From positions 2,418,001 to 2,482,000 of the forward strand of contig NZ_JBGNYA010000001.1 of NCBI RefSeq assembly GCF_041477585.1: a stretch of DNA of 64,000 bases. The letters are read 5' to 3'. Source of the DNA: Halobellus sp. MBLA0158. GTDB lineage: Archaea; Halobacteriota; Halobacteria; Halobacteriales; Haloferacaceae. This document shows positions 37,220-49,418 of this stretch, one piece after another. How positions within the stretch are numbered: position 1 is the stretch's first letter; each line of letters starts with the position of its first letter. The notes below the pieces were generated by a model. That model made no database searches. It was not told the DNA's origin and saw only the letters and a list, made by a program, of their open reading frames with translations. A program made the position numbers and the translations under genes.

Positions 37220-38159
37220 ACGGCTCTATTGAATCCGCATACAGCGACGGGATTCACTGTTTGATGGCTCGTTCGACGTTGTAGACTGCCGCGGCGAGAG
37301 TGATCTCTCGGAACTGACGGTACCAAGCACGCGCTCGGACGGCGGAGCCGTACGAGCGCTTGATCACCGAATTCACGGTCTCACAGACCGAACGCTGATT
37401 GTAGAGTTCATCTTTGATCCGCGCGTTGTGCGCGTGGTCGTAGGGTGCAAAGACGCGGTGTTTAATCAACGGTCTCACGCCTTCTGAGCGAAGTTCTTTT
37501 CGAAAGCTCATATCGTCGTAACCCTTGTCGGCGGCGAGGCTCCGCAGGTCGCCCTGCGGAACGCAGGCGACCTGCGGGCCGACGTTCGTCCCGTTCGGCC
37601 ACTTCGTGCTACAGTGAACGTCGATAACCGCGCCCTGCTCGGTATCGACGAGGAACGTCGCTTGGACGGTCTGTACCTCACGATCACAGCGGCTGAGATA
37701 GTGACTCGACGCCTGACGGCGGTCGAAGTAGGTAGCGTCGATGGCAGCGTGTCCCGACTGATCGAGCTGCTCCGACGAGAGTCGGAGCAGCTCACGCCAG
37801 ATACGCATCGGAGCTCGGTCAAACGACTTACAGAGCGCCGACGGGCCGGGGAACTCGCCGCGCTCTAAGACGAGCGCGGCTCGTACCCGCTCCATCTCTT
37901 CAGCCCAGTCAAGGACTTCTTCGAGTGTCGCTTCCATATGGAGCCGGAGAAAATGCAAGACAGCGTGCTTCCAGCCGGCAACTCCGTTGCCGGCAGGATC
38001 GCTGATCTGCATCAGCGCAGCATCAGTAAGTTTTCGTGCTATCGAGACGGCTTGTTTGACGAAGCGGAAGAGGGTCTTCTGCACAAAGGCACTTCTTCCG
38101 CTTCATCTCAATCGTTCTGACGACTTACCCCGACGCAGTCCGTGGATTCAATAGAGCCC
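37220..38159 (-). mobile_element. IS5-family insertion sequence (about 940 bp), complete
   Basis: Bounded by a 15-bp terminal inverted repeat: GGCTCTATTGAATCC at 37220-37234 and its complement at 38144-38158 (one extra C at the right end). An exact 8-bp target duplication TCTCAGAC flanks it. Encodes one intact transposase. Intact ends, intact duplication and an open transposase frame point to a recent insertion. Confidence 0.88.
37254..38084 (-). CDS. IS5-family DDE transposase
   Basis: 276 aa, GTG start at 38084; the upstream frame is closed by a TGA. Catalytic triad Asp116 (AAIDATYFD), Asp186 (LAADKGYDD) and Glu235 (QRSVCETVNSVIKR), the DDE order and spacing of IS5. C-terminal region GSAVRARAWYRQFREI is typical of halophilic IS5 transposases. 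No frameshift or stop, so it should be active. Confidence 0.92.
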   Translation of the reverse strand: MQKTLFRFVKQAVSIARKLTDAALMQISDPAGNGVAGWKHAVLHFLRLHMEATLEEVLDWAEEMERVRAALVLERGEFPGPSALCKSFDRAPMRIWRELLRLSSEQLDQSGHAAIDATYFDRRQASSHYLSRCDREVQTVQATFLVDTEQGAVIDVHCSTKWPNGTNVGPQVACVPQGDLRSLAADKGYDDMSFRKELRSEGVRPLIKHRVFAPYDHAHNARIKDELYNQRSVCETVNSVIKRSYGSAVRARAWYRQFREITLAAAVYNVERAIKQ

Positions 38160-38754: not shown

Positions 38755-39285
38755 TCACTCGATCCCGGCACGGATCTCGCGGACGACAGAGAGGATTGAT
38801 CGCCACTGTGCAGCCGACCCAGGGACTCTTTCGTCGGCGCTTGCGGTCCGGTCCATAATCGCTGTCTGTACGGACTCCGGATCGTCGATCCGCCGAAACT
38901 GCAGATCATCCCCGCCCGCGACTTCAACGGTGACGGTCCCGTACCCGAAAGCCGATCCGGTGATGGATCGACTATACCCCGTGTTCTGGACTTTCTGCAG
39001 TCCGACTCGGCGGACGGTGCGACCGGCCACGCCGCGTTTCAGCCAGAGCGCCCGCGTCGTGAGCAGGTACTCGGTACGTTTCACTCGGAGGAGAGCCCAC
39101 GCTATCAGGCCGATACCGGGGACGACGCCGACGACCGCTCGTGGGTCCGCGAACACCGTCGCTGCGGCCGCGAGAGCGCACACCACGACCCCGACACCGA
39201 CACCAGGGAGCGCAGCCGAAATACGTGGCTGTCCTGCCCAGACGATGCTCTCGTCGCCGCGGCGGAACCACCAGTCGTCGCTCAT
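38755..39285 (-). CDS. Bacterial PH-domain membrane protein (YdbS-like)
   Basis: 176 aa: two N-terminal hydrophobic helices (about residues 25-65), then a bPH2 domain (RTEYLLTTRALWLKRGVAGRTVRRVGLQKVQNTGYSRSITGSAFGYGTVTVEVAGG). Its ATG overlaps the stop of the second PH-domain gene (ATGA at 39282-39285), so the two are translated together. Roles of this pair are unknown; membrane-associated stress functions have been suggested for bacterial YdbS/YdbT. Confidence 0.85.
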   Translation of the reverse strand: MSDDWWFRRGDESIVWAGQPRISAALPGVGVGVVVCALAAAATVFADPRAVVGVVPGIGLIAWALLRVKRTEYLLTTRALWLKRGVAGRTVRRVGLQKVQNTGYSRSITGSAFGYGTVTVEVAGGDDLQFRRIDDPESVQTAIMDRTASADERVPGSAAQWRSILSVVREIRAGIE

Positions 39286-39908
39286 CGCTCCTCAGTGGCT
39301 GATCCGTCACCGGAGTTCTGTACCCCGGCAACTGAGGTGTCACCCTCGTCGTCGCTCAGTTCCCGACGGATCGCCCGGAGTTCGTGGAGAATCTCGTCCA
39401 GTACGTCGTCGGCGTGGGCTCCCGCATCCGTGTCGCCTTGCTCTCGGTCGTCGACCTCCCTTGCGATCAGTTCCTGCACCGACGCCGGATCCGGGATGCT
39501 GCGAAACTTGAGTTCGACGCCCGACCCACCGGCTGTGCTGACATCGACCGAGCCGTAGCCGAACGACGAACCGAGGGCCGACTGCGAGTAGGAGATGTTC
39601 TGCACCTTGTCGAAGCCGATCTGTTGTACGTCCCGCGAGAGGATCCCGCGCTTGCTGTAGAGCCCGCGGTTCGTGACGACGTAGTTCGTGTTCGTGTACT
39701 GGAGGTACGAACCGACGAGGATCGGAATCCCAACGAGGACCAGCGAGAGCGGGATCCCGATGATGAACGCAGGAACGATACTGTACTTGTGGGGCGTACT
39801 CGCCCATTGAATCGATTCGCCATCCTCGAGTGTGAGCCAGTCGAGGTCGAGGTCACCTGTATCAGCCGAATCGGGCTTCGGCGTGTCCTGGAGGGCGGCA
39901 TCGGACAT
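39282..39908 (-). CDS. Bacterial PH-domain membrane protein, paralogue
   Basis: 208 aa. Hydrophobic pair at about residues 45-75 followed by a bPH2 domain (TNYVVTNRGLYSKRGILSRDVQQIGFDKVQNISYSQSALGSSFGYGSVDVSTAGG), very like the downstream gene, and an acidic C-terminal tail with a short coiled coil (DDVLDEILHELRAIRRELSDDEGD). First gene of the two-gene unit, divergent from the membrane protein at 40112. Confidence 0.85.
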   Translation of the reverse strand: MSDAALQDTPKPDSADTGDLDLDWLTLEDGESIQWASTPHKYSIVPAFIIGIPLSLVLVGIPILVGSYLQYTNTNYVVTNRGLYSKRGILSRDVQQIGFDKVQNISYSQSALGSSFGYGSVDVSTAGGSGVELKFRSIPDPASVQELIAREVDDREQGDTDAGAHADDVLDEILHELRAIRRELSDDEGDTSVAGVQNSGDGSATEER

Positions 39909-40111
39909 ATGTCCAGGAACATAGCCGAGTCACAAAACCATAGCGGCTTGCGAAGTAGCGATCGAAGCGGGATCTCCGCTGAGCGGCCGAGCAACGGTCG
40001 CTACTACGATCCGATTTCGTTCCCAACGAGCGATGAGAACCGGACGGTATGTGGCCTCTCTGAAGAGGTCGTCCCCGATGTATAAGGTAACTCCAAGCGG
40101 TGCAGACGAAT

Positions 40112-40933
40112 ATGGTTGCGGCGGTAAGGACGATCTTCGGGGTGATTCTATTTGTTTGCTCCTTGTGGTTCGGCTACCGAGCGATCACTGCCGGGATGCT
40201 TTACCAATCGATGGCGGCATCCGAAGACGGGATTCCATCAACGCTCGTCGATGGCGAGACAGTCGCCATAGAAGGAACAGTAAACGTCAGGGACTCACCG
40301 CCGCTAAGTGATCTTTTTGAGATTGACGCGGAGGGCCCGATCGGTGCATACGTGTGGCGACTCAAGGAATCCGAGTCGTATAATTACAATCTCGATGCCG
40401 ACGAGTCCGGAGCGGATACGAATATGATCACGTATGCGTCCGGGATTGAGTCTGGAACGTTTGCCGTCGACGACGGTCGTCGCGAGATTCGGATCGACAC
40501 GGACTGGCTAGCCGAGACCCACGACAGCGACGACATCACGACCGCGTCTCCGGACTGGACGGTAACGACTCGGCTGTCGAAGCGGAGCTGGAGGTCCCAG
40601 TACATCCACCTGGAGGACCACTGGATCGTCAACCCCGTTGCCGAAGTGGACGGCTTCGATGCAGACGCCGCCGACGAGAGCCTAGACGACGAGTACGTTG
40701 AGGCGAAAGCGATCCTCGACGGCGAGACGCTGGCCGTCTGCGGGGAAGTCACGGTCGAGCAGGGCACTCCCGTGCTCCAAGGCAGCGACGAGACGCCGCT
40801 GGTACTTTCCGATCAGGGGTTTGATGCATTCGGCGGGAGGCTTCGTCGGCAGAGCCTGAAGTACGGACTGGCCGCGGGTGGATGTGCGGTCATCGCCAGC
40901 CTCGCGTTGGTAAGCGGACTGGGAATTGGATGA
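40112..40933 (+). CDS. Two-pass membrane protein, GIDE-like haloarchaeal family
   Basis: 273 aa. Hydrophobic helix at residues about 5-30, a long extracellular or cytoplasmic acidic domain (about 40-240: SLxTLVDGETVAIEGTV..., VKAILDGETLAVCGEVTVEQGTPVLQ) and a C-terminal helix (LAAGGCAVIASLALVSGLG). The single-domain layout resembles the BAM/GIDE domain of mitochondrial MUL1-like proteins. ATG 40112 has a TATAAGG box 25-30 nt upstream. Divergent from the PH-domain pair; may act with it on membrane homeostasis (inference). Confidence 0.65.
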   Translation: MVAAVRTIFGVILFVCSLWFGYRAITAGMLYQSMAASEDGIPSTLVDGETVAIEGTVNVRDSPPLSDLFEIDAEGPIGAYVWRLKESESYNYNLDADESGADTNMITYASGIESGTFAVDDGRREIRIDTDWLAETHDSDDITTASPDWTVTTRLSKRSWRSQYIHLEDHWIVNPVAEVDGFDADAADESLDDEYVEAKAILDGETLAVCGEVTVEQGTPVLQGSDETPLVLSDQGFDAFGGRLRRQSLKYGLAAGGCAVIASLALVSGLGIG

Positions 40934-41026: not shown

Positions 41027-41800
41027 CTATATCGGAAGTACGTGGAGCAGTATCTCGTGGACTGAGACGGTCCAAACCATCGCGTGTGTGACCGCCGTGA
41101 CCGCGAGGTTCTCCGTGCGTTCGTACGCGTAGCCCCACGCTAACCCCGGAAGTATCGTATCGATCCCCCAGTAGAGGCTGCCGCCGAAACTCACGCCCTG
41201 GGTCATCAGTCCGACGAGGAAATGCAGCACACCGAACAACAGGCCGGCAAAAACCACGACGCCCAGCGTGTCGAAGGCGGCGCGAAGCCGACCTTGAATG
41301 AGTCCCCGGTAGACGAGCTCTTCCGCCGGTGCAGCGAACAGATACATCCCAACGAACGCGACCGGCCAGAGCAGGGGCCGGGTCTCCAAGGCGAGTTCTT
41401 CCATCCCGGTTCCCGGCTGTGGATGGGGAAGTCCGACCGCAGCTAACACCGGTGGGAGCACGACTCCCTGGGCCGCAAAGAGGAGCGGCAGCCCGATGAT
41501 CCAGCCGACGTCTTCGAGTGTCGGCCGGCGGACCTTCACGTACCGCTCCCAGTCCCCCTGCCACGCCAGGTACGCAGCGGCGAAGCCGGCGAAGCCGACT
41601 TGGATGTAGTTCCCCTGGAGCACCCGAACGACAGGTGACGCAGCGAGATCGAGTATCGACACGAGACCGTTCGTCGAGATGACGCCGATGAGTCCGGCGA
41701 GCAGCGCGCCGACGGTGATTCCGAGTCCAGCGACGACCGCACGAGCCTGGCGTCCGCGTCTCGTCTCCAACGCGACCGAAAGGTCGGACGAAAGGCTCAC
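41027..41800 (-). CDS. CPBP-family intramembrane metalloprotease
   Basis: 257 aa polytopic membrane protein. The Abi/CPBP active-site motifs are intact: E160-E161-xxx-R165 in APAEELVYRG, His193 in FGVLHFL, and a distal His in VTHAMVW. GTG start at 41800, directly after an in-frame TGA; a 38-codon ORF ends there in a GTGA overlap. Family members cleave prenylated or lipid-linked proteins or serve as immunity factors. It lies among other membrane proteins (42.1-46.7 kb) of unknown function. Confidence 0.88.
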   Translation of the reverse strand: MSLSSDLSVALETRRGRQARAVVAGLGITVGALLAGLIGVISTNGLVSILDLAASPVVRVLQGNYIQVGFAGFAAAYLAWQGDWERYVKVRRPTLEDVGWIIGLPLLFAAQGVVLPPVLAAVGLPHPQPGTGMEELALETRPLLWPVAFVGMYLFAAPAEELVYRGLIQGRLRAAFDTLGVVVFAGLLFGVLHFLVGLMTQGVSFGGSLYWGIDTILPGLAWGYAYERTENLAVTAVTHAMVWTVSVHEILLHVLPI

Positions 41801-42093
41801 GGCGAATCACGCCTCGATACGACGGCCGAGCCGTTCGAGAGGCGCTGCCTACGGAGGGACGGCGACCAGTCCCGGTGGTCAAGGCCTGACGTCGGGGAGT
41901 GGAGGGCTGACATAGTTGCTCCGTAGCGATCAGGAATGCAGGGTGATTTCGCGCGATATCTCGTATCCACCGCGGGACGGGTGGTCGGGTACGGCTTGTT
42001 GGGAGGGCACATCCACGACTCGAATAGGAGCGAGAAAAGTGTACCTCAGACTGAAAAATTGGTTTTAGACAGTCTGGAGCCGCTGGCCGTGGG

Positions 42094-43206
42094 TCACGAG
42101 TCGGGAGCTGTGCGAAGCCGGTCGATACGATCCCCGAGCGCGACCTTGACCGAGAGCGGATTCGGAATGCGCCGTCGTGTTGGCTCCAGGGTATGCGCGT
42201 CGGCGTACTCGGAGAGCGCATCGGCAACGGTCACCCGTCCGACCTGCTCGGCAGCGTACTCGTCTGCGGCACGAATTTGCCGTCGGGCGAGCCAAAAGCC
42301 GACGACGATCGATCCGAGTGCGAGCCCGAGTAACGGCCACCGGGGGCCGATGCCGCTGACGGACGCGGTCAGAGAGATGCCGGCCACGAGAACCGTCCCG
42401 ACCCTGATCTCGAAGACGTGGGTTCGAAGTTTCCCGGCTTCAATCGCTAGCAGCGCTGCGGCGGTCTCGTCGTCGAAAGCGTCGAGAAACGTGCTCGTCA
42501 CGAAGAGCCGCCGGTAGGTCGGCGGCCCGCGGACGAGCGTTTCCGCTCTCTCCTCGTTCTCGGTGTCGAGAAGCCGTACGTCTCGAACGGTGAGTCCGGC
42601 GCGGTCGCAGAGTCGCGCCACTCGATCTGCAGTGTCCCCCGTTGGCTTCGACGTCGAGCGAAGGACAGCAATCACCCACGGTGCCGCGTACAGCATCCCG
42701 ACCAGGAGCGCTGCGATCCCGACGGCAAGGACGAGCGGTGAGGACTCGATCGTGAGGACTTGGAGTGGAGCCAGCACGACGGTGAGAAGCGCGCTGACGC
42801 CGATCACGTACCGCGTCATCTTCCAGATCGACGTACTGGTGGCGAGGTCGACGTCGCGCACGTCCCGGATGCCCCGTACCGTGGGGAGATACGAGACGAT
42901 CCAGACACACCCGGCCGCGAGGAACGTGACGAAATCAGCGAGAACTCCTGTCACAATGCCCGGAGCGGCGGGCAGCGGTGTGAGGACGGCGGCGCCGAAC
43001 CCGGTGAGGGCGAACACGGCGTAGGCGAGCAGCGTGTACGGGAAGAGGACGGCTGCGTACAGCAGTCGGTACTTTCCGACGGGGTTCCCGAGGCGGCGAA
43101 CGACAGCACTCCCGGTCGCTCCGAGGAGACCGCCGACGATCGCGAGTCCCACGAGCGCGGCAATCGCAACACTGACTGAGGGCGGCGTCGTTTGGAGGGC
43201 AGCCAT
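42094..43206 (-). CDS. M48-like membrane protein with degenerate zinc site
   Basis: 370 aa, several N-terminal helices, then an M48-like soluble part. Where the family has HExxH, the sequence is I255-E256-A-G-K259 (ALLAIEAGKLRTH); only the central Glu is kept. The downstream third-ligand region ADEYAAEQVG (314-323) is preserved. Thus it is probably a non-catalytic pseudoprotease. ATG 43206 lies about 27 nt from TTTTAGTG; ATG 43227 would be too close. Divergent from the DUF6159-like gene. Confidence 0.75.
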   Translation of the reverse strand: MAALQTTPPSVSVAIAALVGLAIVGGLLGATGSAVVRRLGNPVGKYRLLYAAVLFPYTLLAYAVFALTGFGAAVLTPLPAAPGIVTGVLADFVTFLAAGCVWIVSYLPTVRGIRDVRDVDLATSTSIWKMTRYVIGVSALLTVVLAPLQVLTIESSPLVLAVGIAALLVGMLYAAPWVIAVLRSTSKPTGDTADRVARLCDRAGLTVRDVRLLDTENEERAETLVRGPPTYRRLFVTSTFLDAFDDETAAALLAIEAGKLRTHVFEIRVGTVLVAGISLTASVSGIGPRWPLLGLALGSIVVGFWLARRQIRAADEYAAEQVGRVTVADALSEYADAHTLEPTRRRIPNPLSVKVALGDRIDRLRTAPDS

Positions 43207-43310
43207 AGCTGCGTGTTGCCGAAACACGCACTAAAATCATCGCGTCGTACGGCGAAACGCCGACTGAGGATCGCGTCGGTCGGACAGATGCAGTTTTCAC
43301 TCTCCCGGAT

Positions 43311-43318
43311 TTTTAATA
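43311..43318 (+). promoter_or_regulatory. TATA-like box for the DUF6159-like unit
   Basis: TTTTAATA, 24-31 nt before the ATG of the micro-ORF at 43342 and about 165 nt before the DUF6159-like start at 43482. Confidence 0.5.
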
Positions 43319-43341
43319 CATCACTGACCGAACTACTTCCT

Positions 43342-43485
43342 ATGCCCTCCACCACTCGACGACACACCTCGCCTCCACTCACGGGAAGTGGCAGACACCG
43401 AGCGACTTGTGGTCCGGTAGCACGCTCGATGTGCGACACTCCCCGGCTTGTTCGTGACCACTCGACTGGAGGTCAGTCGGGATGA
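43342..43485 (+). CDS. Candidate leaderless micro-ORF (47 aa) coupled to the DUF6159-like gene
   Basis: ATG at 43342 is 24-31 nt after a strong TATA-like TTTTAATA (43311-43318), exactly the leaderless spacing, and the 47-codon frame (MPSTTRRHTSPPLTG...) ends in an ATGA overlap with the next gene at 43482, which has no TATA of its own. The peptide is basic and without a known domain. It could be a coupling leader or a chance frame. Confidence 0.4.
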   Translation: MPSTTRRHTSPPLTGSGRHRATCGPVARSMCDTPRLVRDHSTGGQSG

Positions 43486-44309
43486 CCTCGAAATACCGAC
43501 GCGGATTCGAGATCACCCGCGACAGCCTCCGCATCTTCACCCAGCGACCGACGCTTCTGGTCCTTCCGGCGTTGAGCCTGCTCGCTGTCGGGAGTGCCTT
43601 CGCCGTCCTCGGCGCGATCGTCGTCCAGCGAGGCCTCGTCGCGTCGCTGCTGACCAACGACCTCTACAAGTACGGCGCGTTGTTCTGTGCGATCGCGATC
43701 TCCTCGAGCGTGGCGACGTTTTTCAACGCCGCGGTGGTACACTGCGCGGCGCAACTGTTCGACGGGAACCCGACATCGGTTCGGGATGGTCTCGCTGCGG
43801 CGTGGGGCGCGCGCCGGCAGATCGCCCTGTGGGCAGTCACCGCTGCCACGCTCGGGACGGTCTTGTACATCCTCGATGAGAAGTTCGGCGTGGTCGGAAG
43901 CCTGACGCGGATGGTGTTCGATCTCGCGTGGGCGCTCCTGACGTTCTTCATCGTGCCGGTCATCGTCCTCGACGAGCGACGGAGCCTGCGTCGGCAACTC
44001 CGCCGGAGCGGGTCGCTCTTCCGGGATACGTGGGGCGAAAGCGTCTCCGCCACGCTCGGGGTGAGTTTCGCCTTCCTGCTCGTTGCGCTCCCCGGCGTCG
44101 CGCTGGCTGCGGCTGGCTACTTCGCTCTCGATGGCGCGGTCGCCGCCGGCGCGCTCGTCGCTGGCGGCGGGATCGTCGTTGCGGCTATTGTCGGTTCGCA
44201 GACGGTGTCCGCGGTCGTCCGGACCGCGCTGTATCGCTACGCGACGACGGGTGCGCAAGTCGGCCCGTTCGACGCTCGGGACCCGGACGCGGTCTTTCCC
44301 GACGGCTGA
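43482..44309 (+). CDS. Polytopic membrane protein, DUF6159-like
   Basis: 275 aa with about six hydrophobic helices. N-terminal KYRRGFEITRDSLRIFTQRPTLLVLPALS and the conserved cytoplasmic loop LRRQLRRSGSLFRDTWGESVSATLG are typical of the DUF6159 family. The family is haloarchaeal and bacterial, with no known function. It may be translated by coupling to the preceding micro-ORF. Confidence 0.75.
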   Translation: MTSKYRRGFEITRDSLRIFTQRPTLLVLPALSLLAVGSAFAVLGAIVVQRGLVASLLTNDLYKYGALFCAIAISSSVATFFNAAVVHCAAQLFDGNPTSVRDGLAAAWGARRQIALWAVTAATLGTVLYILDEKFGVVGSLTRMVFDLAWALLTFFIVPVIVLDERRSLRRQLRRSGSLFRDTWGESVSATLGVSFAFLLVALPGVALAAAGYFALDGAVAAGALVAGGGIVVAAIVGSQTVSAVVRTALYRYATTGAQVGPFDARDPDAVFPDG

Positions 44310-44311
44310 CG

Positions 44312-44440
44312 ATGCCGATCTACGACCGTCGCTCCTCCGCAGAGTACGAGATCGTCGATCGCTGGGACGGCGGGATCGGATGGCTCGCACACCCTGACGA
44401 ATTGGTTTTTGGACAAGGATCCGATACAGGCCCTAAATAG
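44312..44440 (+). pseudogene. Truncated N-terminus of a haloarchaeal MBL-fold-like protein
   Basis: Forty-two codons reading MPIYDRRSSAEYEIVDRWDGGIGWLAHPDE and then an abrupt GQGSDTGPK and stop. As I recall, the first 30 residues match the conserved start of a widespread haloarchaeal metallo-beta-lactamase-like family whose full length is over 200 aa. The remainder of such a protein is missing in all frames up to the next gene, so this is probably a remnant after deletion. Confidence 0.5.
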
Positions 44441-44502
44441 ATTAAATCTGGTTTTGATACTCCAGTCGATCTAATATGTGACACCGGTAAGTGGGAGATG
44501 CG

Positions 44503-45312
44503 ATGGTCCTCGTCTCCGCGTTCAAAGACGGATACACTGCCCTCCGATCGAATCCGATCCTGCTCGTCGCCGGTCTCCTCGTGGGGGTCGGAAGCCAACT
44601 CCAGTACGTCGAGCACCTGACCGATTCACCGGTGGTCTCCGCAGGCGCATCGCTCGCGTGGCTGGTCGTGTTCCCGTTCGTACTCGGTGGCTTCCTCGGA
44701 ACCGCCCGCGCCGCCGTCGAAGGGACAGACGCCTCGGTCTCTCAGTTCGTTACTGCCGGACGGACGCATTATCTCACGCTGCTACTCGGCACTGTGGCGT
44801 TCGTGCTTCTCGTTCTCGGAACGGTCTTCGGGCTCGGGTTCGCTGGACTCGTTCTCGGAATCGGATCGATCGCCCTCGGAGCGATTCACGAAATGGCCGC
44901 CTTCGCCGCCGGCGTCGTCTCGCTACTCCTCTGGCTGGTGGCCGTCCTTGCCGTCATAATGTTCGTCCAGTTTTACGATGCCGCGATCGTCATCGAAGAC
45001 CAGGGCGTCGTTGACTCGTTCCGCAGAAGTGTCGGGCTCGTCCGCTCGAACCTCAAAAGCGTAGCCGGATTCTCGCTAGCGTGGCTCGTGCTGATGAACG
45101 GCTTCCTCGTCCCCGAGTACGTGCTGCAATTGCTGCTGACGGATGCGGGGGTGACGGCCGTATTACCGATCGGCCGCGGGATTCCGACCGTCGTCCTACT
45201 CCCGATCGGAGTCGTCCTGTCGGCGGTCGGCTTCGCGTACTTTTATACCGTGTATACGGCGTACTACCTGCGCTTGATCGCCATCTCACCCATCACGACC
45301 GAATCAGTATGA
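44503..45312 (+). CDS. Polytopic membrane protein, DUF4013/DUF7847-like
   Basis: 269 aa, about six helices, starting MVLVSAFKDGYTALRSNPILLVAGLLVG. The conserved amphipathic loop IVIEDQGVVDSFRRSVGLVRSNLKSVAGFSLAW is the hallmark of this family, shared with the protein at 45846. ATG 44503 is about 27 nt after CTAATATG (44471-44478); the in-frame GTG at 44491 is less likely. Function unknown. Confidence 0.75.
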   Translation: MVLVSAFKDGYTALRSNPILLVAGLLVGVGSQLQYVEHLTDSPVVSAGASLAWLVVFPFVLGGFLGTARAAVEGTDASVSQFVTAGRTHYLTLLLGTVAFVLLVLGTVFGLGFAGLVLGIGSIALGAIHEMAAFAAGVVSLLLWLVAVLAVIMFVQFYDAAIVIEDQGVVDSFRRSVGLVRSNLKSVAGFSLAWLVLMNGFLVPEYVLQLLLTDAGVTAVLPIGRGIPTVVLLPIGVVLSAVGFAYFYTVYTAYYLRLIAISPITTESV

Positions 45313-45396
45313 TTACTCACTAACAACTACGTACGATGGTCTCGAAGAGTCACTAATCAGCGCCGACTCACAGCCCCCAAAGCACCAAACACACCG

Positions 45397-45849
45397 ATGC
45401 CACGACTCCTGCCAACCCAAACGGACGCAACAGTGGAACGAAGCGACACCCCTGCCGTGTTGAGTCTCGACGACGAGGCGACGAGGGACGTGATCGAAGC
45501 GCTGTCGTCGGAGACCGCCTACGAGATCTTCCAGTTGCTCAACGAAACGCCGGCGACGCCGGCGCGGATCGCCGAGGACCTCGACCAGAGCGTCCAGAAC
45601 GTTCACTACCACCTGCGGAACCTCGAATCGGCCGGCGTGATCGAAGTCACCGACACGTGCTACTCGGAGAAGGGTCGCGAGATGAGCGTGTACGTCGTCT
45701 CTGAAGATCCGACGCTGCTCTTTCTCGGCACCGAGGACGACCGACCGAGCCTCAAACGCGCGTTCAAGTCCTTCGCCTCGCTCCTGGGGCCACCATCGAT
45801 CCTGCTTGCCGCTGGTGAATCGGTCTCGCACTTCATCACTGGGGAATGA
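45397..45849 (+). CDS. ArsR-type winged-helix regulator
   Basis: 150 aa. Winged HTH at residues about 25-90 (DVIEALSSETAYEIFQLLNETPATPARIAEDLDQSVQNVHYHLRNLESAGVIEV) and a C-terminal amphipathic/hydrophobic stretch (LLGPPSILLAAGESVSHFI). Its stop overlaps the start of the membrane protein at 45846 (ATGA), so it is co-translated and likely autoregulates this unit. No metal-binding Cys motif of classical ArsR is seen. Confidence 0.85.
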   Translation: MPRLLPTQTDATVERSDTPAVLSLDDEATRDVIEALSSETAYEIFQLLNETPATPARIAEDLDQSVQNVHYHLRNLESAGVIEVTDTCYSEKGREMSVYVVSEDPTLLFLGTEDDRPSLKRAFKSFASLLGPPSILLAAGESVSHFITGE

Positions 45850-46748
45850 GTCGTACCGAGACACCGATTCGAAGAGCTTCTACCGTCGACGAGACAACGT
45901 CGTGTGACGTGGTACCGACGATCAAGATCCGAGACGACGTCGACGGGTGTGGGTGCCTCGAATGCCGGAACGTCGAGACGACCACCACCAATCGGACCGT
46001 CCTCGACGCTCTCGTCTGGTCTATTGGCTTGTTTCGGTCGTACCCGTCGATCGTCGTCTTCGCCGGCGTGATCATCCTCGCTAATCGACTCCTCGAAACG
46101 GACGCCGTCACCGCACTCCCGACGCCCGCAGTCGGCGTGGTCGAAGCCGTGACGGCGTTCGCGTTTATCATCTCGATTCGCGCCTACGTGGGCACGATCG
46201 TCGCCGGCGAACTGACCGGCGAGGCAGTCACGATACGTGAAGGGCTGCGTCGAAGCGGTGCCCGGACACCGGCGTTAGTCGGTCTCGTCCTGCTCGTCGT
46301 ATGTTCCGTGATGATGATTCCATTCTTCCTGTCGCTGCCACTCGTGCTTCTGGCCGGCGTTCTTCCGGTCAACCCGGTGGAAGCGGTCGGATTTCCCCTC
46401 GTTGCAGCCGTCGGTGGAATTTTTTTCGTAGTACCGTTTCTGCTGCTCATTTTCAAATTCTGGTTCGCCCCCGAGGCGTGCGTCATCGGGGAGTACGGCC
46501 CGATCGAATCACTACGGGTGAGCTGGCGCATCACGACGAACTACCGCGGGAAGTTCCTGCTCCTCGTCGCGATCGCGATCGGGAGTGCGCTCAGTCTCTA
46601 CCTGCCAACAGTCCTACCCGAAGTGGGGACGGGGGTGACTCCGATGGAACCCGTACTACGTGGGGTCTCATCAAGCGTCAGTGAACTTCTCTCGATCGTC
46701 TGGGCAAGTGCGTACGCGCACATCTACGTCCAGGGCGTCGTTTCGTGA
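45846..46748 (+). CDS. Polytopic membrane protein, DUF4013/DUF7847-like
   Basis: 300 aa. A 48-residue N-terminal cytoplasmic part with Cys residues (CDVVPTIKIRDDVDGCGCLECRN, possible metal site), then six or so helices and the conserved loop VIGEYGPIESLRVSWRITTNYRGKFLLLV. A paralogue of the protein at 44503. The start overlaps the HTH gene by four bases. Confidence 0.72.
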   Translation: MSRTETPIRRASTVDETTSCDVVPTIKIRDDVDGCGCLECRNVETTTTNRTVLDALVWSIGLFRSYPSIVVFAGVIILANRLLETDAVTALPTPAVGVVEAVTAFAFIISIRAYVGTIVAGELTGEAVTIREGLRRSGARTPALVGLVLLVVCSVMMIPFFLSLPLVLLAGVLPVNPVEAVGFPLVAAVGGIFFVVPFLLLIFKFWFAPEACVIGEYGPIESLRVSWRITTNYRGKFLLLVAIAIGSALSLYLPTVLPEVGTGVTPMEPVLRGVSSSVSELLSIVWASAYAHIYVQGVVS

Positions 46749-46929: not shown

Positions 46930-48189
46930 TCAAAGGTTCCCGTTGACGATATCGGCCACGCGCTGGCGGTCGAACAGCTGTTCGTCGGCCGGAATTTCGG
47001 GATAGGGATTCCCGTCGACGTAGCCCGGCCACTCGCCGAACTGGTCCGGATAGAGCTGTTTGGCCGTCATCTCCAGTTGGAAGAGGTTCATAATCGGCCC
47101 CTGGTAGCGTGCGCCCTGGGCGTACACCTCGCCGTTCCGAACCGCACTGAGCTCCGATGCGACGGCGTCGGCTTCCAGCCCTGCACGGATGTCTGCGATG
47201 CTGTAGCTCGATGCCAGCGTGAACAGCACGAGGACCACGTCCGGATCTGCGTCGAGCATCGCCTCGTAGTCGACCTGGGTCTGCGGCCCCTCGAACTCGG
47301 TGTCGCCGAAGGCGTCGATGGCGCCGAGTGGCTGGGTGTGGGCGTTCAGGAATCCGTCGGCGTTGAGATGATACACCCAGAACGTGTCGTCCTGCCCCTT
47401 GAACGTCAACGCGACCGAGGGGCGTTCGCTTTCCGGGGGCAGCCCTGCTTCGATCTCGGACCGCATCGACGAGTGAATCTCCCGAAGCGCACGCGCACGG
47501 TCGCCGGCACGGAACACTTGCGCGGCGCGCTCGTAGATCCCCCACAGCGAGTAGTACTCGTAGTCCTCGGCCCACGCTTCCGGTGGATCGCGTCGACGGT
47601 CGCTGTAGTAGTTGCCGAACCACGGCCCGATTTGGGTCCGGATCTCTACCACGTCGTCCCGGCTGAGGGTCTCCAGGGTCGACGCGTACGCCGGATCCGA
47701 GAGGTGGACGTCGCTGTCGAGTTCGTAGAATCCCTCCTTGCCGAGGTTCCACGAGTCGGTCAGCCCTTCGTACTCGAAGCTGACGCCGTCCAGCCGGTCG
47801 TAGAAGTGGTTCATCAGCGTCCCGTGGTAGTCCGGATAGTAGATCGAATTGATGGCGTCGGCGGCCCCGGACGCGATGGCCATATCCGCGCCATACGGGA
47901 GCCCGGTGTAGACCGACTCCGGAACGGCCTCGAACTCGACTTCGCCCATCGGCGCCATCGACACGGTGTAGCCGTCGCCGGCTCCAGCCTCGGTCGTGGT
48001 GTCGGCCGTCGCCTCAGTCTCGGGAGTCGCGGACGCTGTGTTCGTCGCCGGTGTCGCCTCGGATTCGGATTCGGATTCAGACTGACTCGAACACCCAGCG
48101 ATCAGTCCACTGCCGACGACTGCCGCGCCGTACTTCATATAGTCACGTCGCGTCGGTGCGTGATTCGAATTGGCGTCGCCGTCGCTCAT
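46930..48189 (-). CDS. Tat lipoprotein, siderophore-type substrate-binding protein (second of pair)
   Basis: 419 aa. Tat motif TRRDYMK at residues 13-19, lipobox Cys33 in LIAGC, acidic Ser/Glu/Thr linker to about 70, then a type III periplasmic-binding (FepB/BtuF-like) domain. It is 2 bp after its homologue at 48192, with an almost identical C-terminal motif (QLFDRQRVADIVNG). No permease or ATPase lies nearby, so it must share a transporter or act as an auxiliary binder. Iron-regulated by location behind the Idr boxes. Confidence 0.88.
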   Translation of the reverse strand: MSDGDANSNHAPTRRDYMKYGAAVVGSGLIAGCSSQSESESESEATPATNTASATPETEATADTTTEAGAGDGYTVSMAPMGEVEFEAVPESVYTGLPYGADMAIASGAADAINSIYYPDYHGTLMNHFYDRLDGVSFEYEGLTDSWNLGKEGFYELDSDVHLSDPAYASTLETLSRDDVVEIRTQIGPWFGNYYSDRRRDPPEAWAEDYEYYSLWGIYERAAQVFRAGDRARALREIHSSMRSEIEAGLPPESERPSVALTFKGQDDTFWVYHLNADGFLNAHTQPLGAIDAFGDTEFEGPQTQVDYEAMLDADPDVVLVLFTLASSYSIADIRAGLEADAVASELSAVRNGEVYAQGARYQGPIMNLFQLEMTAKQLYPDQFGEWPGYVDGNPYPEIPADEQLFDRQRVADIVNGNL

Positions 48190-48191
48190 AC

Positions 48192-49418
48192 TCAGATTTC
48201 TCCGTTGATGATGTCCGCAACGCGCTGCCGATCGAACAGCTGCTGGCTTTCCGGCGTCTCTGTCGCGCCTTGGAACTCCCCGAAGGCGTCGGGGTAAATT
48301 TGCTGTGCCGCGTTCTCCAGTTGGAAGAGATTGAAAATCGGGCCCTGCATCGGCGTCCCGCCGACGTACACGCGGTCGTTCTGAATCGCGGTGAGCTCTT
48401 TGCCGACCGGATGGTCCTCCAGCGCGAGCAACGCGTCGAACCGTTCGGAGGGCTCGATATCCCAGTGGTGGATGATCACGTCCGGGTCGATTTCGAGCAT
48501 CTCTTCGAGGTCGATCGCGCTGTAGTTCCGCGCGTACGTCTTGTCGCTGTCAGCGAACGCGCCGTTGGGCTCCAGCGGGCGGTAGTGCGCTTTCGCGAAT
48601 CCGGGGCCGTTGATCTCGTACGTCCCGAAGGATCTCTCGCTCGGGTTGTACACGACCAGCGCGACGGTCGGCCGCTCGCTCCGGGGCGGGAGCCGCTCCT
48701 GGATCTCTGTGACCATCCCGTCGTGGACCTCCCGGAGCTTCGCTCCGCGGTTCGCCACCCGGTAGACCTGGCTGATCTTCTCCGCGAGCTCCCACAGGGA
48801 GTAGTACTGATACGCCTCCCGGCACTCGCCCTCGGGTGGCTGGCTGTGCGCCCGACTGAATCGGTTGGCGAAGAAGGGCGCGACGTTGTCCGCCACCTCC
48901 TCGAAGTCTCCCTCGTCCCACCCGGAGTCGAAGGAGAGCCACCGGCACGGGTCGAGGTGGTGGATGTCGGCGTCCAGTTCGTAGAACAGTTCCTTCGGGA
49001 GGCCGTCGCTCCACAGACCGGTGAGGTCGTCCGTATCGAACTCGACGCCCGGGAGTTCGTCGTAGAACCCCGTGAAGTACCCGCCGGGACGGCCAGACGC
49101 GATGAGCCGATCTTGCTGTCCGATGGCCACGAGGTGGTCCGCCCACACGTCGTCGAAAATGACCGCCGTCTCGGGTACGGCGTCGAACGTGACCTCCCCC
49201 ATCGGAGCCATCCTCACCGAGTAGCCTCCCTCGTCCGCTGCCGTCTCCGTCGTCGATTCCGACTCGAACCCGTCTTCTGTGCTCGCCTCGGACGGCGTCG
49301 GCTCGGTCCCAGAGCCGCCCGTACACCCGGCGAGTAATCCGCCGCCGATGACTGCCCCTCCGAACTTCACGTACTCTCGCCGCGTCGGTGCCGCCTGGCC
49401 GTCGGAGTCGTCTGACAT
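48192..49418 (-). CDS. Tat lipoprotein, siderophore-type substrate-binding protein (first of pair)
   Basis: 408 aa. Tat motif TRREYVK at residues 12-18, lipobox Cys32, acidic linker to about 65, then a type III binding domain (DIEPSERFDALLALEDHPVGKELTAIQNDRVYVGG). First gene of a two-gene unit formed by tandem duplication. A TATA-like CTAAATTTT (about 49438-49446) lies 20-28 nt upstream, and the perfect palindrome at 49421-49438 sits between it and the ATG. The ligand is probably an Fe(III)-siderophore; a haem or cobalamin ligand is not excluded. Confidence 0.88.
   Translation of the reverse strand: MSDDSDGQAAPTRREYVKFGGAVIGGGLLAGCTGGSGTEPTPSEASTEDGFESESTTETAADEGGYSVRMAPMGEVTFDAVPETAVIFDDVWADHLVAIGQQDRLIASGRPGGYFTGFYDELPGVEFDTDDLTGLWSDGLPKELFYELDADIHHLDPCRWLSFDSGWDEGDFEEVADNVAPFFANRFSRAHSQPPEGECREAYQYYSLWELAEKISQVYRVANRGAKLREVHDGMVTEIQERLPPRSERPTVALVVYNPSERSFGTYEINGPGFAKAHYRPLEPNGAFADSDKTYARNYSAIDLEEMLEIDPDVIIHHWDIEPSERFDALLALEDHPVGKELTAIQNDRVYVGGTPMQGPIFNLFQLENAAQQIYPDAFGEFQGATETPESQQLFDRQRVADIINGEI

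Follow-up and report, generated by a model that had tools for sequence, protein, structure and literature searches.

Genes of the locus

We examined a 64,000-nucleotide stretch of the genome of Halobellus sp. MBLA0158 (positions 2,418,001 to 2,482,000 of the 3.10 Mb contig NZ_JBGNYA010000001.1, forward strand), hereafter called the window, in which a gene for a helix-turn-helix (HTH) regulator stands within a run of membrane-protein genes. An earlier note, made from the letters alone, had named six genes here, and all six stand, by their coordinates, where that note had put them (Table 1): a CPBP protease homologue, an M48-like gene (M48L), a DUF6159 gene, two genes related to DUF7847 (DUF7847a and DUF7847b) and, between the last two, the HTH gene itself. 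We refer to DUF7847a-HTH-DUF7847b as the trio. The earlier note had missed the remnant of a gene for a 235-residue protein (g235), the promoter element of the trio, and a cysteine motif in DUF7847b. The main subject of this report is the HTH and DUF7847b, whose reading frames share 4 bp (ATGA).

Table 1. Genes, motifs and putative control elements of the locus, with positions counted in the window.
Feature	Position	Strand	Remarks
CPBP (Rce1-like) intramembrane protease homologue, 257 residues	41027..41800	-	Pfam PF02517, 56.7 bits, cut-off 22.4
Weak palindrome (4 mismatches) upstream of CPBP	42052..42067	.	Suggestive only; 4 genomes have a similar block in the alignment
M48L, membrane protein homologous to M48 and lacking HExxH	42094..43227	-	Start probably ATG 43206
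DUF6159 family membrane protein	43482..44309	+	Pfam PF19656, 62.6 bits, cut-off 27
g235 remnant, 129 bases, first ~30 residues of the 235-residue protein	44312..44440	+	Relatives carry an intact gene there
Putative operator copy TTAAATCTGGTTTTGA, 2 mismatches versus TCAAAACNNGTTTTGA	44442..44457	+	
Conserved promoter element of the trio: putative operator plus TATA-like CTAATA (44471-44476)	44440..44479	+	
DUF7847a, multi-pass membrane protein (hydropathy)	44491..45312	+	PF25231 164.3 bits, cut-off 28.7; start probably ATG 44503
HTH, winged-helix regulator	45397..45849	+	HTH_20 51.7 bits, cut-off 27
HTH Cys88 codon, first wing strand	45658..45660	+	Absent from the 23 paralogues examined
DUF7847b, multi-pass membrane partner of HTH, with CxCxxC N-terminal segment	45846..46748	+	
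CGCLEC (CxCxxC), DUF7847b residues 35-40, within GCGCLECR	45948..45965	+	Kept in 62/63 homologues

Both DUF7847 genes resemble the DUF7847/BPSS1780-like family (PF25231, NF041043). DUF7847a is above the Pfam cut-off and far below that of NF041043 (31.7 versus 90 bits), while DUF7847b aligns along most of the PF25231 model at 27.9 bits, just below the cut-off, and differs from the family in its additional CxCxxC N-terminal segment and its HTH partner; two of the 11 members of the DUF7847b alignment, the window protein included, match PF25231 at E<=0.1. The regulator had been described as ArsR-type, which held as far as the HTH_20 cut-off is concerned and failed against the ArsR/SmtB metalloregulator model NF033788 (30.9 versus 55 bits). 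We rejected the idea that the six genes form one operon, since CPBP and M48L are on the opposite strand and, in one congener (G014), on another contig than the trio.

A gene pair of HTH and DUF7847b

Genomes are labelled G (G000 being the window's own) and fetched loci L. A first neighbourhood comparison covered 60 genomes, 17 of them in the genus Halobellus (both counts including the window's own), and a wider survey searched 392 genomes of the order with a DUF7847b profile. Around the matches 52 further loci were fetched, which with 20 earlier ones gave a set of 72 that we re-annotated with profile hidden Markov models. Some fetched loci (L135-L163) repeat genomes already represented by L016-L025 and L083-L102. 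The profile matched in 75 of the 392 genomes, 56 of them at E<=1e-20, and the other 19 (best E 3.6e-10 or weaker) were set aside as other DUF7847-like proteins. A pattern scan independent of DUF7847b found the HTH with its characteristic cysteine (described below) at 59 places in 53 of the 392 genomes, and DUF7847b was present in all 53 (Fisher p 1.7e-62, a test that, like all those used here, takes no account of relatedness between genomes). Only three genomes had DUF7847b at E<=1e-20 and no cysteine-type HTH pattern: G315, which has a histidine variant, G259, where DUF7847b is a fragment with two stop codons (left out of the fetched loci), and G399, where it is partial. The HTH motif lay no more than 1.5 kb from DUF7847b at 56 of the 59 sites, and two of the other three were on separate contigs.

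The 72 loci held 66 DUF7847b matches above 60 bits, 58 of which had an HTH within 400 bp, either upstream on the same strand (45), divergent (7) or convergent (6). Among the remaining eight, four had an HTH 0.9-4.7 kb away (the farthest, in L133, being a tail-bearing paralogue), three had no HTH in the locus, each at a contig end or a fragment, and one was a mis-called open reading frame (ORF). That the pair is retained despite changes in orientation argues for function over inherited order. These counts show that, across haloarchaeal families, HTH and DUF7847b occur as a gene pair that is near-obligate and usually adjacent. In a tree the linked HTHs cluster with only moderate support (94/53), and 90% of bootstraps give them a single origin.

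Matched cysteines in the two partners

CxCxxC was found in 62 of the 63 DUF7847b proteins scoring above 100 bits, the single miss being cut by a contig end, and its three cysteines were invariant in a 63-sequence alignment of the window protein and those 62. The HTH partners carry a cysteine within the motif D-x-C-YSEKGxEM, seen in 62 of the 65 HTHs above 110 bits in these loci. Of the three exceptions, a second HTH in L105 and the HTH of L133 are tail-bearing paralogues, and that of L116 is a true partner with histidine at this position, so that among true partners the count is 62 of 63 with cysteine and one with histidine. In the AlphaFold model of the HTH (mean pLDDT, the predicted local distance difference test, 65) residues 41-100 form a winged helix with block means of 83 or more, and in the wing hairpin (strands 82-89 and 95-101) Cys88 is the point where the first strand ends. 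We compared a sample of 23 paralogues, made up of two HTHs from trio-type loci and 21 from 20 other places, the latter chosen among the strongest non-linked matches together with those of the window's genome; none of the 23 had a cysteine at the wing position. The case shows how physical partners can be flagged by cysteines that match between two neighbouring genes.

The linked HTHs also differ from the paralogues at their C-termini. The residues following the HTH motif numbered 54 (median) in linked HTHs versus 118 in paralogues, the window HTH is without the second C-terminal hydrophobic segment found in the paralogues, and the C-terminus was above our hydrophobicity cut in 22 of 23 paralogues versus 18 of 63 linked HTHs, the other 45 falling below it. 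Given the tails of the paralogues, anchoring at the membrane is a common trait of the wider HTH family. This bears on one alternative, in which the cysteine site would be merely a structural zinc anchor that tethers the HTH constitutively while the signal is read elsewhere, e.g., by the membrane domain or by DUF7847a. The tails of the examined paralogues are in keeping with such a tether, which leaves the placement of the cysteine in the wing without explanation, and we consider it unlikely.

A second alternative is a thiol redox switch without metal, in which the wing cysteine would form a disulfide with, or be oxidised by, the CxCxxC motif and DUF7847b would report membrane redox state or the entry of oxidants. 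Conservation of the cysteine set in both partners would suit this, as would the precedent of the Haloferax volcanii protein OxsR, a single-domain TrmB thiol regulator that, in the excerpts of the source at hand, is likewise a small haloarchaeal winged-helix protein using one cysteine in its oxidant response (PMC9426492). On the other side, the cysteine of OxsR is placed in the same excerpts at the predicted dimer interface, whereas Cys88 is in wing strand 82-89, and those excerpts mention no membrane partner (PMC9426492). The HTH also scored below the cut-off of the TrmB family (19.3 versus 25.6 bits) and does not classify as OxsR-type, and the histidine of L116, a single case, could bind metal and could not form a disulfide. 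On that one Cys-to-His replacement our interpretation leans to a metal over a plain thiol, and we regard the thiol switch as doubtful.

A palindrome at the trio promoter

A 40-base element upstream of DUF7847a was recognisable in 36 of 37 aligned rows; the last row, L098, was misaligned, and its copy was found by a matrix scan. In distant lineages the element resolves to the palindrome TCAAAAC-NN-GTTTTGA. Copies with at most 2 mismatches numbered 58 in the 1,077,774 bases of the 72 loci, for which five dinucleotide-preserving shuffles gave 1.0 on average. The 58 copies were located upstream of DUF7847a, HTH or DUF7847b (43), upstream of other called genes (11) or neither (4). Sites stood 36-45 bp before called DUF7847a starts and at variable distances before HTH and DUF7847b. 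A site with at most 3 mismatches was near the start of one of these three genes in 50 of 62 DUF7847b loci. The midpoint of a TATA-like TAATA was 29 nt before the DUF7847a ATG in 44 of 55 promoter copies, a set that includes duplicate genomes, with the same spacing to ATG 44503 in the window. From this spacing we read the palindrome as lying immediately upstream of the TFB recognition element (BRE)/TATA region of a probably leaderless promoter, a position that fits activation, or repression by blocking TFB. None of the 23 HTH paralogues had the palindrome (at most 3 mismatches) at its own promoter. Genome-wide, the pattern TYAAAWYNNRTTTTGA was present in 37 of the 53 genomes with a cysteine-type HTH versus 51 of the 339 others, i.e., it is enriched and not exclusive, and a reversed control pattern was present in about 20 of 392 genomes (counted by eye). 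The linkage of the pair and its putative DNA site are both well supported by the genome comparisons.

Loci L217-L246 and L257 were fetched for holding the palindrome pattern. In two of them (L229 and L239), from genomes without the cysteine-type HTH, genes that gave the impression of being SIMPL-like are preceded at 42-44 bp by the palindrome or a close variant of it; since no cysteine-type HTH is present, another regulator may use the same site there.

Candidate regulon

Sites were found before several further genes. The palindrome precedes M48L in all three fetched trio loci that have M48L outside Halobellus and Haloplanus (L088, L092 and L094), and also in L257, which was fetched for its site. 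Homologues of DUF7847a far from the pair, 655 kb away on the same contig in G157 and on other contigs in G246 and G365, have it 42-45 bp before their starts. Other site-bearing genes encode a 148-residue membrane protein (L247, L248), a CPBP pair (L111, L112), parts of ABC-2 transporters (L114, L115, L119, L128) and a LolA-like protein (L130), and a gene in L016 labelled SDR-like by impression has a copy with 2 mismatches. In genomes with the cysteine-type HTH we inspected 12 off-locus sites, chosen by us among the matches listed, of which seven were before membrane- or envelope-type genes and two between genes that gave the impression of being methyltransferase-like and RNase-Z-like. The sites at eight places in genomes without that HTH, likewise our choice among the matches listed, precede a less coherent gene set. 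Within the window only DUF7847a has a good copy (2 mismatches).

Many of the site-bearing genes encode membrane or envelope proteins, and for this reason a role in membrane or envelope maintenance is plausible. The earlier note had proposed a membrane-maintenance unit; the shared DNA site of membrane and envelope genes speaks for it, and the core is narrower than proposed there, comprising the regulator and one membrane partner. The same sites bear on whether the pair might instead be a toxin-antitoxin or defence-like module, with DUF7847b as a membrane toxin, the HTH as an autoregulating antitoxin, and plasmid persistence through addiction. Such a module would match the tight two-gene arrangement, the patchy distribution, the matches in nine plasmid records, the degraded copy seen in G008 and the putative operator at the pair's own promoter. 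The operator is also found, however, before distant DUF7847a, M48L, ABC and CPBP genes, the PADLOC models gave no match for the core pair except generic HTH matches, and gene orientation varies, which, as far as we know, is not typical of antitoxin control. We therefore hold this explanation to be quite improbable. A virus origin was considered and rejected, as a search of 50,697 phage records with DUF7847b gave no match (E<=1e-5).

Conservation of the neighbourhood

The earlier note had proposed comparing gene neighbourhoods across haloarchaea, with a lack of conservation in any relative as the outcome that would speak against its reading. That outcome did not occur, and we found the order kept in Halopenitus, Halorubrum, Haloplanus and Halobellus. 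Among the 60 genomes the trio was in order in 9 of the 17 of the genus (own included) and, across a contig break, in G054 of another family; the outer genes were less constant than the trio in this set, and wider sampling shifted the picture toward that of the earlier note. A plasmid of Haloplanus sp. GX21 has CPBP, M48L, DUF6159, g235, DUF7847a, HTH and DUF7847b in the window's order, and M48L, DUF6159, g235 and the trio are in that order in Halopenitus persicus, Halopenitus malekzadehii (in which DUF6159 is broken into two ORFs) and Halorubrum rubrum. A shorter version, in which DUF6159 and g235 accompany the trio, is found in Halobellus captivus, Halobellus inordinatus and Halorubrum sp. 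CBA1125, and Halorubrum laminariae has DUF6159 with the trio. In G043, from another family, DUF6159, HTH and DUF7847b lie inside 4 kb at identities of only 26-46%. In G014 DUF6159 adjoins the trio and the M48L-CPBP pair is on a separate contig, and in G008 DUF6159-M48L-CPBP adjoins broken pieces of HTH and DUF7847b. We noted this degraded copy at L015 13200-17132 (G008 C3) beside intact DUF6159-M48L-CPBP genes, with the trio of G008 on another contig. DUF6159 homologues gave 14 matches in 13 genomes, four of them near HTH or DUF7847b (G000, G014, G008 and G043), and most of the others that were fetched had neither gene close by. A close CPBP homologue alongside M48L was seen only in Halobellus and Haloplanus (G008, G014 and Haloplanus GX21).

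Could this be a plasmid-like region in which haloarchaeal membrane genes that are unrelated to each other have come together only by chance? The inconsistent linkage of CPBP and of a nearby pair of PH-domain genes, and flanks that vary between genomes, would agree with this; the order kept in four genera, the co-occurrence of DUF7847b with the cysteine-type HTH in 53 of 53 genomes and the shared operator do not, making it extremely improbable as an account of the whole. On these comparisons, with conservation in other genera and the 53/53 co-occurrence, the gene order is beyond what chance would predict, and the chance explanation is contradicted for the core and stands for the PH pair.

M48L, CPBP and g235

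M48L was recognised by profile-profile comparison, in which hhalign aligned it with 17 haloarchaeal M48 peptidases over 199 columns at 98.9% (E 2.5e-17). A plain hmmscan with PF01435 matched four of 13 members (best E 0.0013) and not the window protein, and a PDB profile search with M48L gave nothing convincing (best E 0.025). M48L shares with the M48 peptidases (HtpX/Ste24-like, PF01435) their profile and, by hydropathy, a multi-pass membrane topology, keeps the AAD region as well as the RI-RLR end at its C-terminus, and differs by the loss of HExxH, which is absent from 18 of 18 homologues (13, and five further ones). The window protein has IEAGK at this position, and isoleucine replaces the glutamate of E-x-x-A-D. 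With HExxH missing in all 18, no peptidase activity is expected, and we rejected an active protease as a candidate function. M48L is apparently a conserved, dead M48 protein, or pseudo-peptidase, so that the homology read earlier as M48-like was borne out and peptidase activity by the known active site was not. Database records label its homologues "peptidase", and behind these labels we have identified a conserved dead relative of the M48 proteases.

In the CPBP alignment EExxxR and FxxxH are kept and the final motif is HxxxW (HAMVW in the window), with tryptophan in 7 of 11 sequences including that of the window. We take the CPBP/Rce1 reference motifs to be EExxxR, FxxxH and HxxxN, the last of which the window protein departs from. 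In several genera the g235 gene (e.g., L016 9329-10036) separates DUF6159 from the trio, and its window copy is cut to ~30 residues. The 235-residue protein had no match in Pfam (E<=0.001) or NCBIfam (E<=0.1) and a best PDB E-value of 0.65; that it might be metallo-beta-lactamase-like is an impression only.

PH pair and flanking genes

The earlier note had joined the PH-domain (bPH_2) gene pair at 38755-39908 to the unit, a link that did not survive the comparison: a PH homologue occurs in 31 of the 60 genomes (own included) as a separate module, and in the six other trio-carrying genomes of the genus that have a match, this is either on a different contig or separated from the trio by more than 30 kb. 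By look the pair is a two-gene module of its own, and its homologue is mostly away from the island. In G007 (L031) a CPBP gene with about 43% identity is found close to a PH homologue. The defence role also raised earlier finds no support here as far as antiviral defence is concerned, since the only PADLOC matches were those to generic HTH and CARF-linked HTH models and one of 14 bits between DpdJ and one PH protein, and proteins of seven relatives gave no PADLOC match at E<=0.01.

Other neighbours in the window include a hydrophobic-ended protein at 40100-40933 that matches nothing in Pfam or NCBIfam; it occurs in only 5 of the 60 genomes (own included) and in G014 lies about 11 kb from the M48L-CPBP pair. 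ORF reading further indicates two tandem, similar-looking solute-binding-type lipoproteins adjoining the island (46930-49418) and a transposase-like gene near the PH pair (37254-38084).

Discussion

With reservations, we favour the interpretation that HTH and DUF7847b form a split, membrane-associated one-component regulator controlling an envelope regulon. The HTH would bind the TCAAAAC-NN-GTTTTGA palindrome, and DUF7847b would keep it at the membrane via a shared metal or thiol site composed of its own three cysteines and the wing cysteine. A membrane, metal or redox signal would open or close this site and thereby change the occupancy by HTH of its operators, which at DUF7847a would sit just upstream of the BRE/TATA region. 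The predicted output is altered expression of an envelope set comprising DUF7847a and M48L, the latter a dead scaffold and possibly an adaptor or substrate trap, with DUF6159 as a possible member by gene order only; in some lineages the set may add CPBP, ABC-2 transporter parts, the LolA-like protein and the 148-residue membrane protein. The metal bridge, the signal and the envelope-stress role are what we infer beyond the pair and its site, the last of these because of what kinds of genes have the site. The likely role of the system, which both chromosomes and plasmids carry, is an envelope-stress response.

A number of observations weigh against this interpretation. By the 3-mismatch criterion 12 of the 62 DUF7847b loci are without a site, four of which (L024, L092, L097 and L098) carry the element in the matrix scan. 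The 51 genomes that hold the pattern without a cysteine-type HTH have it in some cases before other genes and in some inside genes, and in L232 a tail-bearing HTH paralogue outside the set of 23, to which the site itself led us, is preceded at 53 bp by a copy with 2 mismatches; on both counts other factors may use the site. Of the 12 off-locus sites chosen among the matches listed, three are within ORFs. The window CPBP (4 mismatches) and M48L (aligned) have only degenerate copies with 4-5 mismatches, DUF6159 in the window has no clear site of its own, and the M48L promoters on Halorarius and Salinirubellus plasmids have none. The hydrophobic stretch in which 18 of the 63 linked HTHs still end might let these proteins touch the membrane on their own. 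For DUF7847b the AlphaFold model reached a pLDDT of only 43.7 and gave no usable structure, and a PDB profile search with it gave no match.

More tentatively, we consider possible a two-protein signalling design in which one metal site, built from the three cysteines of CxCxxC and the wing cysteine (once histidine), joins a transcription factor to a multi-pass membrane sensor, opening of the site frees or engages the wing, and a TCAAAAC-NN-GTTTTGA envelope regulon that includes a dead M48 scaffold responds. A close archaeal parallel is ArnR/ArnR1 of Sulfolobus acidocaldarius, membrane-bound one-component regulators that likewise hold an HTH at the membrane; there a single polypeptide does so, whereas here two proteins with matched cysteines would (PMC6396743, PMC13286277). 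Our literature searches, with subscription journals and preprints outside their scope, found nothing on DUF6159, or on DUF4013 together with archaea, and for DUF7847 only work on Pseudomonas hypothetical proteins, judged by its listing; those on archaeal membrane-anchored or one-component regulators, zinc fingers, envelope stress and halocins, and pseudoproteases returned nothing that we recognised as the HTH-DUF7847b pair.

To our knowledge, how haloarchaea sense envelope damage and respond to it transcriptionally is largely open. The locus offers a defined regulator together with a membrane partner, a putative DNA site and candidate targets, all of which are testable in transformable haloarchaea. 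In the zinc-binding anti-sigma factors (ZAS family, e.g., RsrA/ChrR-like) a cysteine-rich partner motif controls a transcription factor; their motif is HxxxCxxC, whereas DUF7847b has CxCxxC and is a multi-pass membrane protein, and archaea, as far as we know, have no sigma factors. If the proposal is true, the pair would be a previously undescribed archaeal design, a functional counterpart of the zinc-binding anti-sigma envelope-stress systems that works without sigma factors.

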